From: Lichenicola cladoniae
GTDB lineage: Bacteria > Pseudomonadota > Alphaproteobacteria > Acetobacterales > Acetobacteraceae
Direction: 5' to 3'
Assembly: GCF_013201075.1 (NCBI RefSeq)
Contig: NZ_CP053708.1
Span: forward strand, 1,801,501-1,865,500
DNA: 64,000 bases
The notes under the pieces were generated by a model. That model saw only the letters and a program-made list of their open reading frames with translations. It made no database searches and was not told where the DNA came from. The position numbers were made by a program, and so were the translations under genes. Below are positions 13,157 to 32,369 of the stretch, piece by piece (position 1 is the first letter of the stretch; every line of letters begins with the position of its first letter).

Positions 13157-13606
13157 ATGGACGTCAAGAAACTGATCCCGCTGGCTGCCTTGCTGGCCCT
13201 GTCGGCGTGCGAGGTGCCCAGCCCGGCACAGCGCAAGATGCTCGATTCGATGATCGGCAGATCCGAGACCGACCTGGTTCGCAGCCTCGGTGTCCCGACC
13301 CGGAACTTCGCCACCGGCGGTCATACCTTCCTCGCGTACGTCGATAACGAGAGCAGCTACTCGCCCGGCTCGCCCGGTGTCGGCTGGGGATGGGGCTGGG
13401 GCGGCTGGGGCTGGGGCGGCGGCGGGTTCGGCGGTGGCTACGGTGGCGGCTTTGGAGGCGGCTATGGCGGCGGTTTCGGCGGGCCCTGGGGCGGTGGCTA
13501 CGGTGGCGGCTTCGGGCCGAGCTACTACCAGAGCAGCTGCACCACCACCTTCGAGGTCAATGGCGGCAGGGTCGCCTCCTGGAACGTCCGTGGCGATGGC
13601 TGCTGA
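13157..13606 (+). CDS. Glycine-rich surface lipoprotein
   Basis: A 149-residue predicted lipoprotein: a short signal ends LLALSAC at about Cys18. Residues about 25-60 (MLDSMIGRSETDLVRSLGVP) resemble the helical start of SmpA/BamE-like small lipoproteins, which bind partners with such a DxVxxxLGxP element. The middle (about 75-122) is a Gly/Tyr/Phe/Trp repeat built from GGGYGGGF units. The C-terminus (CTTTFEVNGGRVASWNVRG) again looks folded, with two cysteines that could form a disulfide. Exact function is unknown. It is followed by another lipoprotein gene on the same strand. Confidence 0.75.
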   Translation: MDVKKLIPLAALLALSACEVPSPAQRKMLDSMIGRSETDLVRSLGVPTRNFATGGHTFLAYVDNESSYSPGSPGVGWGWGWGGWGWGGGGFGGGYGGGFGGGYGGGFGGPWGGGYGGGFGPSYYQSSCTTTFEVNGGRVASWNVRGDGC

Positions 13607-26128: not shown

Positions 26129-26902
26129 CTAGGACCGCGCGTGTTCGACCGCGGCACTCCGGACGAAGTCGATCAGGCCCGGCGCGCGGGACGGGAGCTC
26201 CGGTTCGTTGTAGCGCGCAGCCAGGAGCCCGCGGCAGAGCATCCCGTTGAACTCCATGTTCACCACGATGGTGCGCAGGCTCGAGAGATGCGCGCCGAAG
26301 CGCTCCGGATCGATCGGGCCGCCATTGACGTCGACGAAAGCGGGCGCATCCGGACCGTCGTTCCCGGCCAGTGACCGGCGGTCGAGGTAGCGCTCAACCT
26401 CCTCCGGCCAGGGCAGGGCGTGCAGCCCGGCCATGGTGAGCGCCAGCAACCGGCCGGTGCTCCAGTCGGCCCGCTGCAACTGCTCGATCAGCGCGAGCTG
26501 CCGCCGACCGAACGCCTTGCGGGCAAACAGCTCGCGTATGGTATCCAACGACTGCCCGTCGGCCTCGGCGCCGAACGCGTCACGAAACGACCCGCCGTCG
26601 GCGATCGTACTGTTGATCTGCTCGGCGAACATATGCTCGTCCAGGGTCAGCCGGACCTGGGCAACCCAGGGCAGGGCAAGCACGGCGTCGCGCATGTCCT
26701 CGGCCATGATCCAGGCGAAGTTGGCGCTGCACCAGTAGGTCGGCAGTCGGTATCCGATCGACACGATACTCCTGTCGTCGATCGTCACGGCCGTGACGAA
26801 GCCGAGCGAGATCACAGACTCGTCCAGTTCCGGATCGGTCACCCGGTCCAGCCGGGCGATGATGTCGGCATTGCGGGGATCGTTCGGATCGGCATGCAGC
26901 AT
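26129..26902 (-). CDS. DUF59 (MIP18/PaaD-like) iron-sulfur assembly-related protein
   Basis: A 257-residue protein. The N-terminal 110 residues carry the MIP18/DUF59 fold (IIARLDRVTDPELDESVISLGFV), and WCSANFAWIMAEDMRDAV places a cysteine where SufT/PaaD-type proteins keep theirs. The C-terminal half is a helical extension, with no domain I can name. Genes of this type accompany propane- and acetone-type diiron monooxygenases (prm/mim operons), beside an amidohydrolase and an alcohol dehydrogenase, as here. It begins 5 bases after the amidohydrolase stop and is the last gene of the sigma-54-controlled operon. Start at 26902 is set by the conserved sequence. Confidence 0.8.
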   Translation of the reverse strand: MLHADPNDPRNADIIARLDRVTDPELDESVISLGFVTAVTIDDRSIVSIGYRLPTYWCSANFAWIMAEDMRDAVLALPWVAQVRLTLDEHMFAEQINSTIADGGSFRDAFGAEADGQSLDTIRELFARKAFGRRQLALIEQLQRADWSTGRLLALTMAGLHALPWPEEVERYLDRRSLAGNDGPDAPAFVDVNGGPIDPERFGAHLSSLRTIVVNMEFNGMLCRGLLAARYNEPELPSRAPGLIDFVRSAAVEHARS

Positions 26903-26907
26903 CGCGG

Positions 26908-27951
26908 TTACTCCGCCGCCATCGAAGCCGATGCATCGGCGGCATGGAACTCGCGGCTGTCGCGGAACACCGCCTTCTTGGCTTCGACATCGACATCGTA
27001 GAGCCGCGCCATGTTGAGCCCGAGGATCTTGCGCTTGCTCTCCAGGGTGAAGTTCACGCCCTTCTCCCGCGCGACCGCTTCCGGCAGCTCGAACGCGGCG
27101 AACTTCTCGACCAGCCACTTCGGCGACCAGATCCCGTAGTCGCTGCCGTAGCAGATCTTGTCCTCGCCGATCCAGAACAGCAGCTCGCCGAGGATATGCG
27201 CGAAATATTCGGGCCGCTTGTGGATGAACGGCAACGCCACCGCCAGGCCGGCATAGACATTGGTTTCCTGCGTGGCGATCCAGCAGAAATCGTCCAGACG
27301 CGGCAGGCCGCAATGCTCGACGATGAAGTTGAGGTCCTGGAAGGTCGTGGCCACGTCGTCCACGTCCGCGACATCGAACGCATCGCGATTGAGCGGCAGG
27401 ATGGTCGGGCCCTTGTGCACGTGGATGTTCCTGACGCCCATCGATCGCGCCAGTTCGAGATAGCGGATGCACCACGGGTCGGTCAGCTTCCAGCCCTTGC
27501 TGTCGCCTTTCCACTCTCCGGTATACAGCTTGACGCCCTTGAGCTTGTACTTCTCGATCTCGGCTGCCAGGGTCTCCAGCCCGGCCTCGCCGTCGCGCGG
27601 ATCGAACGAGCCGTTGGTGATGAAGCGCTCCGGATGCGCCTTCTGCAGTTCGTAGTTCCGCTCGATGGTGTTAAAGCCGGTCTTGTAGAATTCCTTGAGG
27701 TTGGTGGTCTGCACCACCGCCATGTCGTCATGTCCCGACACGAACAGATCGTCGTACAGCGCTTTTTCGCCGTAATGGTAGAACTTCTCCCGTGGCCACA
27801 GATACTCGTCCGGGCTCATCTGGTGGTAGCCGTAGAAGCAGTCGATGAACTGCCTTCCGTGGACGTTCTTCTGGTTCTCGACCGAGGCATCCCAGTTGTG
27901 GATATGCCCGTCGAGGACGAACAACTCTTCGCCGTTCGGCATCTTGTACAT
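26908..27951 (-). CDS. Amidohydrolase family protein (prm/mim-operon type)
   Basis: A 347-residue TIM-barrel amidohydrolase of the metal-dependent group related to ACMSD. Metal-site elements are visible: the N-terminal DGHIHNWD (HxH), NIHVHKGP, IVEHCGLPR and the terminal YGSDYGIWSP with the catalytic aspartate. The closest family context I recall is the uncharacterised amidohydrolase in propane/acetone monooxygenase operons of actinobacteria and rhodobacters. The reaction is unknown. It is followed immediately by the DUF59 gene and preceded, 27 bases away, by the SDR gene, all reading leftward. Confidence 0.85.
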   Translation of the reverse strand: MYKMPNGEELFVLDGHIHNWDASVENQKNVHGRQFIDCFYGYHQMSPDEYLWPREKFYHYGEKALYDDLFVSGHDDMAVVQTTNLKEFYKTGFNTIERNYELQKAHPERFITNGSFDPRDGEAGLETLAAEIEKYKLKGVKLYTGEWKGDSKGWKLTDPWCIRYLELARSMGVRNIHVHKGPTILPLNRDAFDVADVDDVATTFQDLNFIVEHCGLPRLDDFCWIATQETNVYAGLAVALPFIHKRPEYFAHILGELLFWIGEDKICYGSDYGIWSPKWLVEKFAAFELPEAVAREKGVNFTLESKRKILGLNMARLYDVDVEAKKAVFRDSREFHAADASASMAAE

Positions 27952-27978
27952 CAGCGTTCCTCCGATTTCGTGTCGTGC

Positions 27979-28770
27979 TCAGGCGAACTGGATGCCGCCA
28001 TCGATCATCACCGATTGCCCGGTCATGTAGTCGCTGTCCGGCGACGCCAGGTAGGATACGAACTTGGCGACATCCTCGGGCACCGAGACGCGTCCGAGAT
28101 GGATCGATTCCGCATATTTGCGTAAGGCGCCGCCACGCTGGATGCCTTCCTCCTCGGACAGCTTCTCGTCGATCAGGTCCCACATCGCGGTGCCGACGAT
28201 ACCGGGGCAGTAGGCGTTCACCGTGATGTTGTGCTTCGCCCACTCCATCGCGGCCGCCTGGGTCAGCCCGCGCACGCCCCATTTCGACGCCGAATAGTGG
28301 CCGAGCAGCGCGAACGGCCGGTGCGCCACGATCGAGGCCGCACCGATGATCTTGCCGCCGCCGCCCTGCCGGATCATCTGCTGTGCGGCCGTCTTGTAGC
28401 ACAGGAACATGCCGCGCAGATTGACCGCCATCATGTGGTCCCAGTCATCGACGGACAGGTCCAGCAACGAGACCACCTGCGCGATCCCGGCGTTGGATAC
28501 CATCACGTTCAGCGCACCGAGTTCGTTGACGACTCCCTGCACCATGTCGCCGACTTCGCCCTCGCTGGAAACGTCGGCGATGAGGCCGGCACTGCGCCGG
28601 CCCTTTGCGCGGATCAGGGCGACCACTTCGTCGAGGCCGCTGCGGTTGGCGGCAATGTCGTTCACCGCGACATCGAGCCCGTCATCGGCCAGCCTGAGAG
28701 CGATCGCACGGCCGATGCCGCGTCCGGCTCCGGTCACCAGGGCAACGCGGCCATCCTGTCTCTCGACCAT
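27979..28770 (-). CDS. Short-chain dehydrogenase/reductase
   Basis: A 263-residue classical SDR. NAD(P) binding is shown by VTGAGRGIGRA, the NAG motif by VSNAGIA, and the catalytic Ser and YxxxK by GAASIVAHRPFALLGHYSASK. VNAYCPGIVGTAMW and the C-terminal YMTGQSVMIDGG are also standard. It resembles the acetoin/diacetyl or 2,3-butanediol reductase group, so a secondary alcohol or ketone substrate is plausible. The start at 28770 has a GGAGAAG ribosome site. It lies between the zinc dehydrogenase and the amidohydrolase in one operon. Confidence 0.88.
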   Translation of the reverse strand: MVERQDGRVALVTGAGRGIGRAIALRLADDGLDVAVNDIAANRSGLDEVVALIRAKGRRSAGLIADVSSEGEVGDMVQGVVNELGALNVMVSNAGIAQVVSLLDLSVDDWDHMMAVNLRGMFLCYKTAAQQMIRQGGGGKIIGAASIVAHRPFALLGHYSASKWGVRGLTQAAAMEWAKHNITVNAYCPGIVGTAMWDLIDEKLSEEEGIQRGGALRKYAESIHLGRVSVPEDVAKFVSYLASPDSDYMTGQSVMIDGGIQFA

Positions 28771-28811
28771 GATCTTCTCTCCGTCGGTTTGGTTTGCGGC
28801 CACGAGGTCGG

Positions 28812-29855
28812 TCATGGAATCAGGACCGCGCGACCATGGATGAGGCCGTGATGCAGGTCCTTCAGGGCCTGGTTTGCGTTCTCGAGGCTGTATTGCCGGG
28901 TTTTCAGGGAAACCAGGCCGCGATCCGCCAGCGCCATCAGTTCGACCAGCTCGGGATAGGTGCCGACCAGGTTGCCGACGATGGTTTTTTCCGAGGTGAT
29001 CATGTCGATGGTCGGGATCTCGACTTTCCCGCCATAACCGACGATGTAGTAATATCCGCCGTCGCGGGTCATCGCGAGGCCCTGCGAGACCGAACTGCCT
29101 TCGCCGACGAAGTCGATGACCGCTTCGGCACCTTTCCCCTTGGTCAGGTCCTTGATCTGCGCCACCTCGCTTCCGTCCGCGATCACGGCATGATGCGCGC
29201 CGCACTCCAGTGCGAGCGTCAGCGCCGCTTCCGACCGGTCTATGACGATGATGTCGGCCGCGCACAGGGCACGCAGCACCTGGATCCCGACATGGCCGAG
29301 TCCGCCTGCGCCGATGATGACCGCGAACTGGCCGGGCAGCAGATGCCGCGATGCCTTTTTCGCGGCGCGATACGCGGTCAGCCCGGCATCGGTGTAGGGG
29401 GCGACATCCTGCGGTGCGAGCGATGGCGGCAGCTTGATCAGCGCCCGTTCGCCGGAGCGGAGATATTCCGCGTATCCGCCGTCGGCGTTGATGCCGGGAA
29501 AGCGGCTTTCCTCGGCGTGCATGTCGTCGCCGCGCCGGCAGGCCAGGCAATGGCCGCTGGTGACCAGCGGATGGCAGATGACGGCATCCCCGACCTTGAC
29601 CGAGGTCACCGCCCGGCCGATCTCCTCGACCCAGCCGGCGTTCTCGTGCCCCATGATATAGGGAAGCGTCACGTCGGCGTGGTTGCGCCACAACCCTTCG
29701 ACCACGTGCAGGTCGGTGCGGCAGACACCGGCACCGCCGACCCGGATGATGACGTCGGTCGGGCTTTCGATCTCCGGATCGGGGACCGTCTCGTAGCGCA
29801 CGAGCTCGTCGCGTTCGAGCGTCTCGTCGTATTGGTGCAGCACGGCTGCCTTCAT
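28812..29855 (-). CDS. Zinc-dependent NAD(P) alcohol dehydrogenase
   Basis: A 347-residue medium-chain dehydrogenase. Catalytic zinc ligands sit in AGVCRTDLHVVEG and MGHENAGWVEE; the coenzyme fold is IIGAGGLGHVGIQV followed by an acidic VIDRSEA, which favours NAD. The structural zinc lobe is degenerate (GHCLACRRGDDMH keeps only two cysteines), as in several alkanol dehydrogenases. It is the first gene of the operon, behind a sigma-54 promoter and a strong AGGAGGT ribosome site. This is the position of the alcohol dehydrogenase of propane-monooxygenase type clusters; an alcohol made by oxygenation is a likely substrate. Confidence 0.88.
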   Translation of the reverse strand: MKAAVLHQYDETLERDELVRYETVPDPEIESPTDVIIRVGGAGVCRTDLHVVEGLWRNHADVTLPYIMGHENAGWVEEIGRAVTSVKVGDAVICHPLVTSGHCLACRRGDDMHAEESRFPGINADGGYAEYLRSGERALIKLPPSLAPQDVAPYTDAGLTAYRAAKKASRHLLPGQFAVIIGAGGLGHVGIQVLRALCAADIIVIDRSEAALTLALECGAHHAVIADGSEVAQIKDLTKGKGAEAVIDFVGEGSSVSQGLAMTRDGGYYYIVGYGGKVEIPTIDMITSEKTIVGNLVGTYPELVELMALADRGLVSLKTRQYSLENANQALKDLHHGLIHGRAVLIP

Positions 29856-29902
29856 CGCGAACCTCCTGTGGCGTATCCGACGACGCCTGCAGAATCGTTA
29901 GC

Positions 29903-29917
29903 GCAACTTCCATGCCA
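29903..29917 (-). promoter_or_regulatory. Sigma-54 (-24/-12) promoter of the dehydrogenase operon
   Basis: Read on the minus strand the sequence is TGGCATGGAAGTTGC, which has the invariant GG and GC dinucleotides exactly 10 bases apart (consensus TGGCACG-N4-TTGC). Transcription should begin near 29891, about 36 bases before the alcohol dehydrogenase ATG. A divergent gene for a sigma-54 activator lies immediately on the other side, which strongly supports function. Confidence 0.85.
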
Positions 29918-29980
29918 TCGGCCCGACATGCAGCAGTCCGGCGGGTTCGTGCGACTATGCTGCACTGCAACGTTTCACAA

Positions 29981-30008
29981 CGGAACAGGCATGTTCCGAA
30001 ACGGAACA
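29981..30008. promoter_or_regulatory. Palindromic upstream activator sites for the sigma-54 regulator
   Basis: Three alternating copies of the half-site CGGAACA/TGTTCCG occur: 29981-29987 (CGGAACA), 29992-29998 (TGTTCCG) and 30002-30008 (CGGAACA). They form two overlapping perfect dyads with 4-base and 3-base spacers. They sit about 90-117 bases upstream of the predicted start, the normal distance for enhancer-binding proteins, and between the operon and the activator gene. Confidence 0.75.
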
Positions 30009-30105
30009 GCGTACGTCATGCGGGCTTCCGCGTACCGGATAGCACGCTCATAGTGGCTCCACGAACGAGACTCCGCACAAGCGGTCCCTTTGGAGGACAA
30101 CTTCC

Positions 30106-31986
30106 TTGGACGTTCTGGAAAAAGTTGCCGAAGCCCGTTTGCGGCTCGAGAAATACGGCGAGGTGTCGCAGTCCCTGGTCTCGACCGAAATCAGCGCGAG
30201 CTGGAATCGCTGCCTCGAGGCGGGCCTCGATCCGAGGCGCTCTCCCGACCTCACCGAACTCGATCTTCCTGCCCTGCGCCATGTCCGCGCCCAGCACGAC
30301 CAGGTCGCCCGGCTCGCACGCACCGAGATGGAGACGCTGCACGGGCAGATCGCCGGCTCGAATTTCCTGATCGCCTTCGCCGGCCCGGATGGTACCGTGC
30401 TCGACGCGATCGGCGACGGCACGTTCCGCGACCAGGCACGCGACCGCGCGCTCGGACCGGGCATGTGCTGGAGCGAGATGCGTCGCGGCACCAACGCGCT
30501 CGGCCTGGCGACCGCCCTGCAGCGCCCGGCCTTCGTGCATGGCGCCGAGCATTTCTTCCGTGGCGACAGTGCGCTGACCTGCGTGGCGATCCCGGTATGG
30601 GCGCCGGACGGCAGGCTTGCCGGTGTGCTCGACGCGTCGACGCTCTGCAGCACCCGGCAACTGCACACGCGCGCGCTGCTGAGCATGGCGGCCACGCAGA
30701 TCGAGAACGGGTTGTTCCGCGACGAATTCCGAGACCGCCTGCTGATCGCCTTCCATGGCCGCGAGGAGTTCCTGCACACCTCCGGCGCCGGGTTGCTCGC
30801 GCTGTCGTCCGACGGGCACATCTTGGGCGGCAGCCCCCAGGCGCTGGCGATGCTGCACGACCTGCCGCTGACCGCCGGTTGCTCGTTCGGTTCGATCTTC
30901 GCCGAGCGCTTCGGCGTCGCGATCGCCGGTCATACCGCCGGCGAGAGCTTCCGGCTGCGCGACCGGTCCGGCTCGGGTTTCGTCGCCATGGTCGCATCCA
31001 TGCCGGCAATCCGCCACCGCGCGCTGCCGGTGCCGAAGGCGCCGATCGTGCTGGCGTCGTCCGCGCGCCTGTCCTTCGTGGCGCAGGACCCGGCCGTGGC
31101 GCGCGCGGTCTCGCTGGCATCGGCCGCTGCCCGGCGCCGGCTGCCGATCCTGATCGGCGGCGAGACCGGAACCGGCAAGGAGGAGCTCGCCCGGGCCGCC
31201 CACCTGGCCAGTGGCCGGTCGGGTCGGTTCGTGCCGGTGAACTGCGCCGCGCTGCCCGGGGACCTCGTGGAGGCGGAGCTGTTCGGCTACGCGGAAGGCG
31301 CTTTCACCGGAGCCCGCCGCGGTGGTGCCGCCGGTCTCGCGGTCGAAGCCAGTGGCGGCACCCTGTTCCTGGACGAGATCGGCGACATGGATGGCCGTGC
31401 CCAGGCGGCGCTGCTGCGGCTGCTCGATGACTGGGTGGTGCGGCCGGTCGGCGGCGGCAGGGGGCAGACGGTGGACGTGCTGCTGATCGCCGCGACCAAC
31501 GTGTCGCTCGACGAGGCGGTCGCCGAGAAGCGGTTCCGGCGCGACCTGCTGCACCGGCTGGCGGTGGTTCCGGTGCAGCTGCCCCGCCTGGCGGACCGGC
31601 AGGATTTTCCCATGATCGCCAGGCATGTGCTGGCGAAGATCGACGCGGCGCTGACCCTCCCGGACGATGCGGTCGCCCTGCTGGCCGCCCAGGACTGGCC
31701 AGGCAACATCCGGGAGCTGCGGAACCTGCTGCTGCGGGCGAGCCTGGAGGGCGGCTCCCGGCTCGGGATCGCGCAGCTGCTTCCGTTCCTGCCGAGCCTG
31801 ACGGTGGCAACTCCGGTTGCGCCGTCCCGCGATCTCAACCTGCAGGTGGCGCAGCGCATCGTCGCCGCCTGCGACCGGCTCGGCGGCAGCATCAGCGAGA
31901 CCGCCCGGCAGCTTGGCGTGTCGCGCAACCGGGTCTATCGCGCGCTGCGGCGTATCGAACCGAGGGAGGCTTCATGTCCAAGATGA
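30106..31986 (+). CDS. Sigma-54-dependent AcoR-like transcriptional activator
   Basis: A 626-residue enhancer-binding protein. The N-terminal part (about 60-200) is a GAF-type sensor domain (PGMCWSEMRRGTNALGLA is typical of AcoR). The AAA+ domain has Walker A GGETGTGKE near residue 351, the sigma-54 contact GAFTGA at 398-403, and Walker B GGTLFLDEIGDM. A Fis-type HTH ends the protein (GGSISETARQLGVSRNRVYRAL). The start is a TTG at 30106 with GGAGGA 8 bases upstream. It is divergent from the dehydrogenase operon and should activate it when its small-molecule inducer, likely an alcohol or ketone, is present. Confidence 0.92.
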   Translation: MDVLEKVAEARLRLEKYGEVSQSLVSTEISASWNRCLEAGLDPRRSPDLTELDLPALRHVRAQHDQVARLARTEMETLHGQIAGSNFLIAFAGPDGTVLDAIGDGTFRDQARDRALGPGMCWSEMRRGTNALGLATALQRPAFVHGAEHFFRGDSALTCVAIPVWAPDGRLAGVLDASTLCSTRQLHTRALLSMAATQIENGLFRDEFRDRLLIAFHGREEFLHTSGAGLLALSSDGHILGGSPQALAMLHDLPLTAGCSFGSIFAERFGVAIAGHTAGESFRLRDRSGSGFVAMVASMPAIRHRALPVPKAPIVLASSARLSFVAQDPAVARAVSLASAAARRRLPILIGGETGTGKEELARAAHLASGRSGRFVPVNCAALPGDLVEAELFGYAEGAFTGARRGGAAGLAVEASGGTLFLDEIGDMDGRAQAALLRLLDDWVVRPVGGGRGQTVDVLLIAATNVSLDEAVAEKRFRRDLLHRLAVVPVQLPRLADRQDFPMIARHVLAKIDAALTLPDDAVALLAAQDWPGNIRELRNLLLRASLEGGSRLGIAQLLPFLPSLTVATPVAPSRDLNLQVAQRIVAACDRLGGSISETARQLGVSRNRVYRALRRIEPREASCPR

Positions 31987-32369
31987 TCCACAGCATGATC
32001 CGGGTGCGCGACGAGCACCGGTCGCTCGCCTTCTACGAGACCGCACTCGGGCTCACGGTGCGTGACCGCTACGCCATGGACGGCTTCACGCTGATCTACC
32101 TGCGCGATGCCGAGGGGACCTTCGAGCTCGAGCTGACGGTCAATGACGACCAGCCCGAGCCCTACGCGTTGGGCAACGGATACGGCCATCTCGCAGTATC
32201 CGTGGATGCGCTGGGCGATGAGCATGCGCGGCTGGAAGCGGCCGGCCTGAAGCCGACTACGCTGAAGTCGCTCGACCACGAGGGCGAGACGCTGGCGCAA
32301 TTCTTTTTCCTGACGGATCCCGACGGCTACAAGATCGAGGTGCTGCAACGCGGCGGCCGCTACCTGTAA
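31974..32369 (+). CDS. gloA: Glyoxalase I-like VOC protein
   Basis: A 131-residue single VOC-module pair resembling lactoylglutathione lyase, which turns the methylglyoxal-glutathione adduct into S-lactoylglutathione. All four metal ligands of GloA appear: His in MIHSMIRV, Glu in FELELTVN, His in GYGHLAVSVD, and Glu in DPDGYKIEVLQ. Its start overlaps the end of the activator gene by 13 bases, implying coupled translation. Methylglyoxal can arise from acetone/acetol metabolism, which would fit the neighbouring operon, but this link is inference. Confidence 0.88.
   Translation: MSKMIHSMIRVRDEHRSLAFYETALGLTVRDRYAMDGFTLIYLRDAEGTFELELTVNDDQPEPYALGNGYGHLAVSVDALGDEHARLEAAGLKPTTLKSLDHEGETLAQFFFLTDPDGYKIEVLQRGGRYL

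Follow-up and report, generated by a model that had tools for sequence, protein, structure and literature searches.

The 64,000-nucleotide stretch of Lichenicola cladoniae DNA analyzed here (the window; contig NZ_CP053708.1, positions 1,801,501 to 1,865,500) carries a cassette of six genes encoding a zinc alcohol dehydrogenase (ADH), a short-chain dehydrogenase/reductase (SDR), an amidohydrolase (AHY), a DUF59 protein and, divergently from these, a sigma-54 activator and a glyoxalase-I-like protein. The cassette is real and conserved, and it isolates two unexplained genes of the propane/acetone monooxygenase (prm/mim) operons, those for AHY and DUF59, from the monooxygenase. Gene order, phylogenetic trees and promoter comparison suggested that it is probably a remodelled prm/mim operon from which prmABCD and the GroEL-like chaperonin gene were lost. 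An operon having AHY and DUF59 but no monooxygenase separates two possible roles of these proteins, namely assisting the oxygenase or acting after it. That the AHY-DUF59 pair of this remodelled operon works in a ketol/alpha-dicarbonyl (acetol, methylglyoxal) module is a reading to which we give about even weight on the basis of homology and gene neighborhood.

A preliminary description of the locus had reported that monooxygenase and GroEL genes are absent from it, and the searches agreed with both statements. In the L. cladoniae genome (completeness 100, contamination 4.62), a PrmA query gave zero matches at E<=1, and the PF02332 model for diiron hydroxylase subunits likewise gave none. Both searches were also negative in two further genomes, those of the Acetobacteraceae strain KSS12 (G071) and Acidocella aminolytica (G249/G689). 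The searches themselves work: PrmA matched 11 of 15 entries, corresponding to 9 of 12 distinct genomes (G253 equals G086, G252 equals G096 and G250 equals G071), and 19 of 22 entries in a second set, where 15 were true PrmA (83-89% identity) and four (G334, G448, G540 and G617) were only distant soluble diiron monooxygenase (SDIMO) kin at 27-31% identity. PF02332 matched in 5 of 11 entries (G249 and G689 being the same strain). The possibility of a monooxygenase encoded elsewhere in the genome was set aside on these negative searches. Within window positions 18001-40000, the tblastn panel gave no match to the GroEL-like chaperonin, PrmB, PrmC or PrmD, and no reductase or coupling protein was found in this interval, to which the search for these two components was confined.

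Comparison of cluster composition across the family Acetobacteraceae showed that the cassette recurs, again without a monooxygenase, in A. aminolytica and KSS12. When the loci of the best 80 of 255 AHY relatives were scored with the tblastn panel, PrmA was present at 74. The six PrmA-less loci were one with PrmB, PrmC and PrmD on a stretch ending short (L040), two Acidiphilium trios (L059 and L060; see below), an AHY-DUF59 pair (L063) and the loci of A. aminolytica (L001, also L167) and KSS12 (L002, also L122), both of which have the order ADH-SDR-AHY-DUF59 with a divergent activator, as in the window. The three cassette genomes belong to three different genera of the family, and the overlap of the activator and glyoxalase genes (Table 1) was also found in Acidocella. 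Identities between the window and Acidocella amounted to 83% for ADH, 78% for SDR, 79% for AHY, 57% for DUF59, 68% for the activator and 70% for the glyoxalase-like protein, with no internal stops, and nonsynonymous divergence (dN 0.12-0.41) was well below synonymous divergence (dS 1.0-2.2, near saturation) across the six genes of the window and L001. The SDR was 76-79% identical in L001 and L002 and at most 32% identical in the other loci matched, while the window ADH shared 83% identity with the other two cassettes and 78-80% with ADH of Burkholderiaceae prm operons. Columns specific to the cassettes relative to prm forms numbered seven in AHY and two in ADH, none of them a likely His/Asp ligand, and at the same threshold DUF59 had no such column. 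Altogether, the cassette genes look to be under purifying selection, and the conservation, intact frames and layout kept in three genera point to a working operon and not a ruin, as had been proposed. The L. cladoniae genome is 6.06 Mb in size, and four sampled congeners (G056, G132, G181 and G219) have 3.7-4.1 Mb and no AHY; within this genus, the cassette may have been acquired recently.

The phylogenetic analyses placed the three cassettes together in each case, with a support of 99 in the AHY tree (60 rows), 100 in the activator tree and 100/100 in a concatenated AHY+DUF59+ADH tree of 38 loci. In the latter, the cassettes lay inside a 29-row clade (99/100) whose remaining rows comprised 21 prm-linked and five trio loci, a nesting that depends, in this midpoint-rooted tree, on the root lying outside the 29-row clade. 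The sister group of the cassettes was Burkholderiaceae prm (93/94). ADH, AHY and DUF59 are orthologues of the prm proteins in prm order and the promoter layout is common to the cassette and Bradyrhizobium-type prm, so the earlier assignment of these genes as prm/mim accessory genes holds. The simplest reading is a single event on the line leading to the three genera, with prmABCD and the chaperonin lost and the SDR gained. The acetoin-reductase-like SDR would thereby have taken the place of prmABCD, while ADH, AHY, DUF59, the promoter layout, the activator sites and the AcoR-type activator would have been kept. A prm operon of proteobacterial type, TGTTCC palindrome included, was additionally seen on a contig named Mycobacterium sp. 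KBS0706 (L046), reflecting either transfer or a mislabelled assembly.

The promoter and enhancer sites, which the preliminary description had called intact, were an exact -24/-12 element (TGGCATG-N4-TTGC) and a perfect palindrome, with similar elements in L001, L002 and numerous prm operons. The -24/-12 motif is weak alone, as 3.3 matches are expected at <=1 mismatch, and gains weight because both elements also precede the orthologous ADH gene in other genomes. The palindrome in Table 1 is the sole exact match in the window, where 0.17 matches are expected at <=2 mismatches; one further match with 2 mismatches was located at 13291. Across 48 rows, a palindrome with <=2 mismatches was found upstream of ADH in 38 and a perfect one in 22, against an expectation of approximately 0.016 per row under uniform base frequencies, with three of the rows being cassettes and some others near-copies that are not independent. 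A -24/-12 match preceded ADH in 37 of the 48. The distance from the start of the palindrome down to the -24 element was 104 nt in the 18 prm rows of Bradyrhizobium/Rhodopseudomonas whose palindrome is perfect, 91 nt in the window and Acidocella, and 58/80 nt in KSS12. Tandem activator sites were 21-22 nt apart in all three cassettes and 33-34 nt apart in prm operons, for example L014, L033, L130 and L131. The rpoN gene is present in the L. cladoniae genome.

The features of the locus are compiled in Table 1, and the gene coordinates given earlier (26129-32369) proved exact. The four minus-strand genes follow each other at spacings of 41, 27 and 5 nt, and the activator and glyoxalase-like genes diverge from them, with the promoter elements in between. 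The activator has an AcoR architecture, with a GAF domain, a GAFTGA motif at residue 398 in the AAA+ domain and a Fis-type helix-turn-helix. AHY is a single-copy protein in the L. cladoniae genome, where the next-best match reached only E 0.3.

Table 1. Genes and predicted regulatory sites of the L. cladoniae cassette (window positions).
Feature	Position	Strand	Remarks
Zinc ADH, 347 aa	29855-28812	minus	Pfam ADH_N/ADH_zinc_N
SDR, 263 aa	28770-27979	minus	Pfam adh_short
Amidohydrolase (AHY, PF04909), 347 aa	27951-26908	minus	Pfam Amidohydro_2, 143 bits
DUF59 protein, 257 aa	26902-26129	minus	Pfam FeS_assembly_P = DUF59, 45 bits
AcoR-type sigma-54 activator, 626 aa	30106-31986	plus	Pfam GAF + Sigma54_activat + HTH_8
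Glyoxalase-I-like protein, 131 aa	31974-32369	plus	Pfam Glyoxalase; overlaps end of activator gene
Predicted sigma-54 -24/-12 promoter TGGCATGGAAGTTGC	29917-29903	minus	62 nt before ADH start
Putative activator site TGTTCC-N5-GGAACA	29992-30008		Perfect palindrome, 17 nt
Second, weaker putative activator site	29971-29987	minus	2 mismatches; 21 nt downstream of first

Pooling of all AHY loci gave 112 (106 distinct), 89 of which had PrmA in view, and an adjacent same-strand DUF59 gene was present in 108 of the 112; one locus without it (L016) is cut by a contig edge. Of 397 genomes of the family, 26 had AHY (E<=1e-60), and these included every one of the 21 genomes with PrmA (E<=1e-100). The five AHY genomes without PrmA were the three cassette genomes, G051 and G638 (77% complete), in which the AHY-DUF59 pair stands beside an ABC transporter. 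At the level of the class, AHY was found in 6 of 385 genomes, L. cladoniae included. Plasmid loci of Rhizobium N324, Peribacillus, Halorarius and Thermomicrobium also have the pair with no PrmA in view. Additionally, ADH, AHY and DUF59 form an operon of their own, a trio, in Acidiphilium and relatives, where prmABCD is located next door or far away in the genome; these trio loci (L059, L060, L123-L126, L128 and L177) represent a second, independent split of the prm operon. The pair is therefore separable from the monooxygenase, and in this sample the monooxygenase was not seen without AHY. This pattern fits a downstream role of AHY and DUF59 better than a role in maturation. A GroEL-like chaperonin is cited as essential for functional expression (PMC6849523), and it is this maturation part that vanished together with the monooxygenase.

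The neighbors of the monooxygenase-free loci had no single pathway in common among the selected open reading frames (ORFs) that were scanned. AHY-DUF59 stands beside a sugar-type ABC transporter in L129 (G130:C70) and L168 (G638), and L129 also holds a GlcD-type FAD oxidase, an SDR and a fucose/arabinose-isomerase-like protein. In Rhizobium N324 (L084, 9001-12290) the monooxygenase-free pair lies beside gloA and a D-2-hydroxyacid dehydrogenase gene, and in Peribacillus (L085, 9001-11443) beside genes for a DJ-1/PfpI protein and a sigma-54 activator.

The AlphaFold2 model of AHY (pLDDT 89) is a TIM barrel of the ACMSD/LigW type. The Foldseek matches listed were ACMSD-type decarboxylases, the LigJ hydratase, a COG3618 protein and similar barrels at 11-16% identity, and no sequence relative was found in the PDB at E<=0.001. 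Residues H16, H18, H177, H179, H213 and D271 were invariant in 31 aligned sequences and are likely metal ligands, as assigned by motif (HxH, a further His, and Asp) and not by superposition. All of the invariant residues are kept in the cassette AHYs, which therefore probably catalyze the same chemistry as their prm counterparts. The DUF59 protein (model pLDDT 92) has an N-terminal DUF59/MIP18 domain, scoring above the Pfam cut-off of 23.5 bits, in which C58 was invariant in 38 sequences. Its structural matches at E<=0.001, 3cq1 and 2cu6, covered this domain only, and CIAO2B followed at 0.003. The C-terminal part, of about 165 residues (approximately 90-257), is helical and confidently predicted, with N215, E217 and C223 invariant; it had no PDB match at E<=0.001 and none that was convincing among the matches listed. 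The protein scored below the curated cut-offs of the SUF-associated TIGR02945 (24 versus 143.4 bits) and the haloarchaeal PaaD model NF041868 (20.6 versus 180 bits). We infer that AHY and DUF59 form one functional unit independent of the monooxygenase, most likely a metal-dependent enzyme with a dedicated metal or Fe-S assembly partner.

The kinship of SDR and ADH, the literature on the acetol route and the glyoxalase genes in the neighborhood led us to propose a ketol/alpha-dicarbonyl module. Among solved structures, the nearest relatives of the SDR are 3wtc (a putative oxidoreductase) and acetoin or L-2,3-butanediol dehydrogenases, those of ADH include 1h2b and Rhodococcus ruber ADH-A, and those of the glyoxalase-like protein are lactoylglutathione lyases, although the latter protein stayed below the curated cut-offs (126 versus 165 for NF050074 and 64.4 versus 120 for TIGR00068). 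Glyoxalases of the window type (57-63% identity) were present in nine prm-bearing loci (L023, L029, L039, L053, L071, L075, L088, L169 and L170), and in L071 and L088 the gene lies beside those of a GMC oxidoreductase and a gluconate-dehydrogenase-like subunit. According to PMC7176365, the amidohydrolase made up 3.2% of the proteome of an actinobacterium with a Mim cluster grown on 2-hydroxyisobutyric acid, the cluster was also induced on acetone, and a route from acetone through acetol to methylglyoxal was proposed. A C3 cluster for the oxidation of acetone and acetol that includes glyoxalase I has likewise been described in Methylacidiphilum (PMC8630023, PMC12235487).

In the proposed module, the GAF domain would let the activator respond to a small alcohol, ketone or ketol. 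A C3-C4 diol or hydroxyketone, either 1,2-propanediol/acetol or 2,3-butanediol/acetoin, would be oxidized by SDR and ADH as far as the ketol/dicarbonyl level. The AHY-DUF59 unit would transform this product by a hydration or C-C lyase-type step, with glyoxalase I removing leaked methylglyoxal; in the parent prm operon, the unit would act after the hydroxylation of acetone to acetol. A bolder version, which we put forward tentatively as one possibility, is that AHY-DUF59 constitutes a ketol/alpha-dicarbonyl enzyme of a kind not yet described, made of two proteins and including a metal or Fe-S loading partner of its own. It would supply the missing post-acetol step of bacterial propane/acetone catabolism, and the cassette would be a monooxygenase-free descendant to which the SDR, in place of oxygen chemistry, delivers substrate from a diol or ketol. 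The stand-alone alcohol/ketone pathway suggested earlier is thus borne out insofar as the AHY-DUF59 pair is reused without a monooxygenase, while the pathway itself is only plausible from SDR/ADH homology and some glyoxalase neighbors.

Several observations weigh against the reading of the cassette as a remodelled prm operon with a ketol/dicarbonyl function. The Burkholderiaceae prm rows, its sister in the tree (L007, L008, L010, L011 and L082), have no palindrome and no orthologous divergent activator, theirs being a different, downstream one, so that the regulatory part points instead to Bradyrhizobium- or Acetobacteraceae-type prm and the nearest kin disagree. The cassettes also sit on a long stem, and the sister support of 93/94 falls short of the strict line. 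The glyoxalase gene was not found at the KSS12 locus, several of the nine glyoxalase-bearing prm loci are close kin and come with no null for neighborhood frequency, and no ketol- or glyoxal-linked neighbor was found in L172 (6 of 10 ORFs scanned), L063 (4 of 6), L175 or L176 (5 of 8 each). The AHY genes of L169 and L170 have no adjacent DUF59 gene, their genomes having one in a trio operon, and L171 (G051) has none downstream of AHY, where the region is in view, with G051 also absent from the DUF59 search matches. These three exceptions make the AHY-DUF59 pairing strong but not strict, and leave its separability from the monooxygenase unaffected. Regarding these loci themselves, L169 (9893-10861) and L170 (10264-11232) represent a second Acidiphilium-type prm operon with AHY and without a DUF59 gene, and the DUF59 protein of the trio operon may serve both operons in these genomes. 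The AHY of L171 (10855-11424) is truncated upstream by the contig end, and the G051 genome has no PF02332 or PrmA match.

Other explanations were considered for the same data. The cassette could be an operon for acetoin/2,3-butanediol catabolism or detoxification, in which the SDR is a diacetyl/acetoin reductase and AHY-DUF59 acts on a C4 ketol or diketone, with no C3 chemistry involved. The best matches of the SDR, to the acetoin reductase model TIGR02415 (287.7 bits) and the L-2,3-butanediol dehydrogenases 3wye, 3a28 and 1geg, and the AcoR architecture of the activator agree with this, but the SDR score is under the TIGR02415 cut-off of 304.35, ADH, AHY and DUF59 derive from operons of C3 metabolism, and glyoxalase-I-like genes lie near some relatives; we regard it as rather doubtful. 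Could the pair instead be a set of monooxygenase maturation factors that now serve another diiron or Fe-S enzyme encoded elsewhere? The annotation of DUF59 proteins points to Fe-S assembly, and the DUF59 protein is weakly matched by PaaD, an accessory of the diiron enzyme phenylacetyl-CoA epoxidase. Nevertheless, four family genomes that gave no PF02332 match have kept the pair (G000, which is L. cladoniae, G071, G689 and G638), a fifth such genome (G051) has AHY alone, and plasmid loci of 19 kb from Halorarius, Peribacillus and Thermomicrobium carry the pair with no PrmA in the panel, which makes such a retained maturation role very unlikely.

An operon for 2-propanol and acetone, where ADH would make acetone from 2-propanol and the acetone would be used by another route, is in keeping with the presence of R. 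ruber ADH-A, a secondary alcohol dehydrogenase, among the nearest solved ADH relatives, and propane metabolism has been said to require the ADH of the Gordonia cluster (PMC6849523). This explanation would leave SDR, AHY and DUF59 without a role, and the gamma subunit of acetone carboxylase (PF08882) was present in Acidocella but not found in L. cladoniae or KSS12, with the search limited to this one acetone route; we consider it unlikely. Finally, the missing monooxygenase and chaperonin genes might suggest a decaying prm remnant with no present function. All frames are intact, however, dN is low relative to dS, the promoter and activator sites are conserved, and an identical derived layout with a shared new gene, the SDR, occurs in three genera, so that decay is hardly credible. 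It was rejected on the intact frames, the dN well below dS and the derived layout in three genera.

The closest known systems are the prm/mim operons (SDIMO groups V/VI; Gordonia TY-5, Mycolicibacterium, Bradyrhizobium and Burkholderiaceae), which have ADH, AHY and DUF59 orthologues in the same order as the cassette. Compared with these, the cassette has no PrmABCD or GroEL-like chaperonin and has an SDR instead. The Bradyrhizobium-type operons additionally share with it the divergent sigma-54 activator, the -24/-12 element and TGTTCC-N5-GGAACA, a site that, together with a sigma-54 promoter, is a feature of many but not all prm operons. The spacing differs between the two, with the activator site 91 nt (window and Acidocella) versus about 104 nt above the -24 element and tandem sites 21-22 versus 33-34 nt apart. 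The Acidiphilium-type trio operon is monooxygenase-free like the cassette and has a divergent activator in L125, L126, L128 and L177, one on the same strand in L124, and none detected in L059, L060 and L123. Unlike the cassette, however, it has no SDR, prmABCD is kept elsewhere in the trio genomes, and it forms a separate clade (100/100).

The role of the amidohydrolase in the parent system had been described as unexplained, in accordance with PMC7176365, PMC9213486 and PMC6849523, whose passages on the amidohydrolase name it without giving it a role. The Methylacidiphilum C3 cluster (pmoCAB3, GMC oxidoreductase, gloA and lactate dehydrogenase; PMC8630023, PMC12235487) resembles the proposed cassette function in its acetol/methylglyoxal chemistry and glyoxalase I, and differs in its copper monooxygenase and GMC oxidoreductase. 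Amidohydrolase and DUF59 go unmentioned in the main text of the paper on strain SolV, as does amidohydrolase in that of the paper on strain IT6. In the open-licence literature, we recognised no paper describing a monooxygenase-free version of prm/mim. As the cassette occurs in A. aminolytica 101 (DSM 11237), the role of AHY and DUF59 is testable by gene deletions in this strain. The acetoin/2,3-butanediol catabolic operons combine an AcoR-type activator with an acetoin-reductase-like SDR. No acetoin dehydrogenase complex was found among the cassette neighbors scanned with Pfam. The cassette likewise has an AcoR-type activator and an acetoin-reductase-like SDR, and it differs from the acetoin operons in its prm-type ADH, AHY and DUF59.

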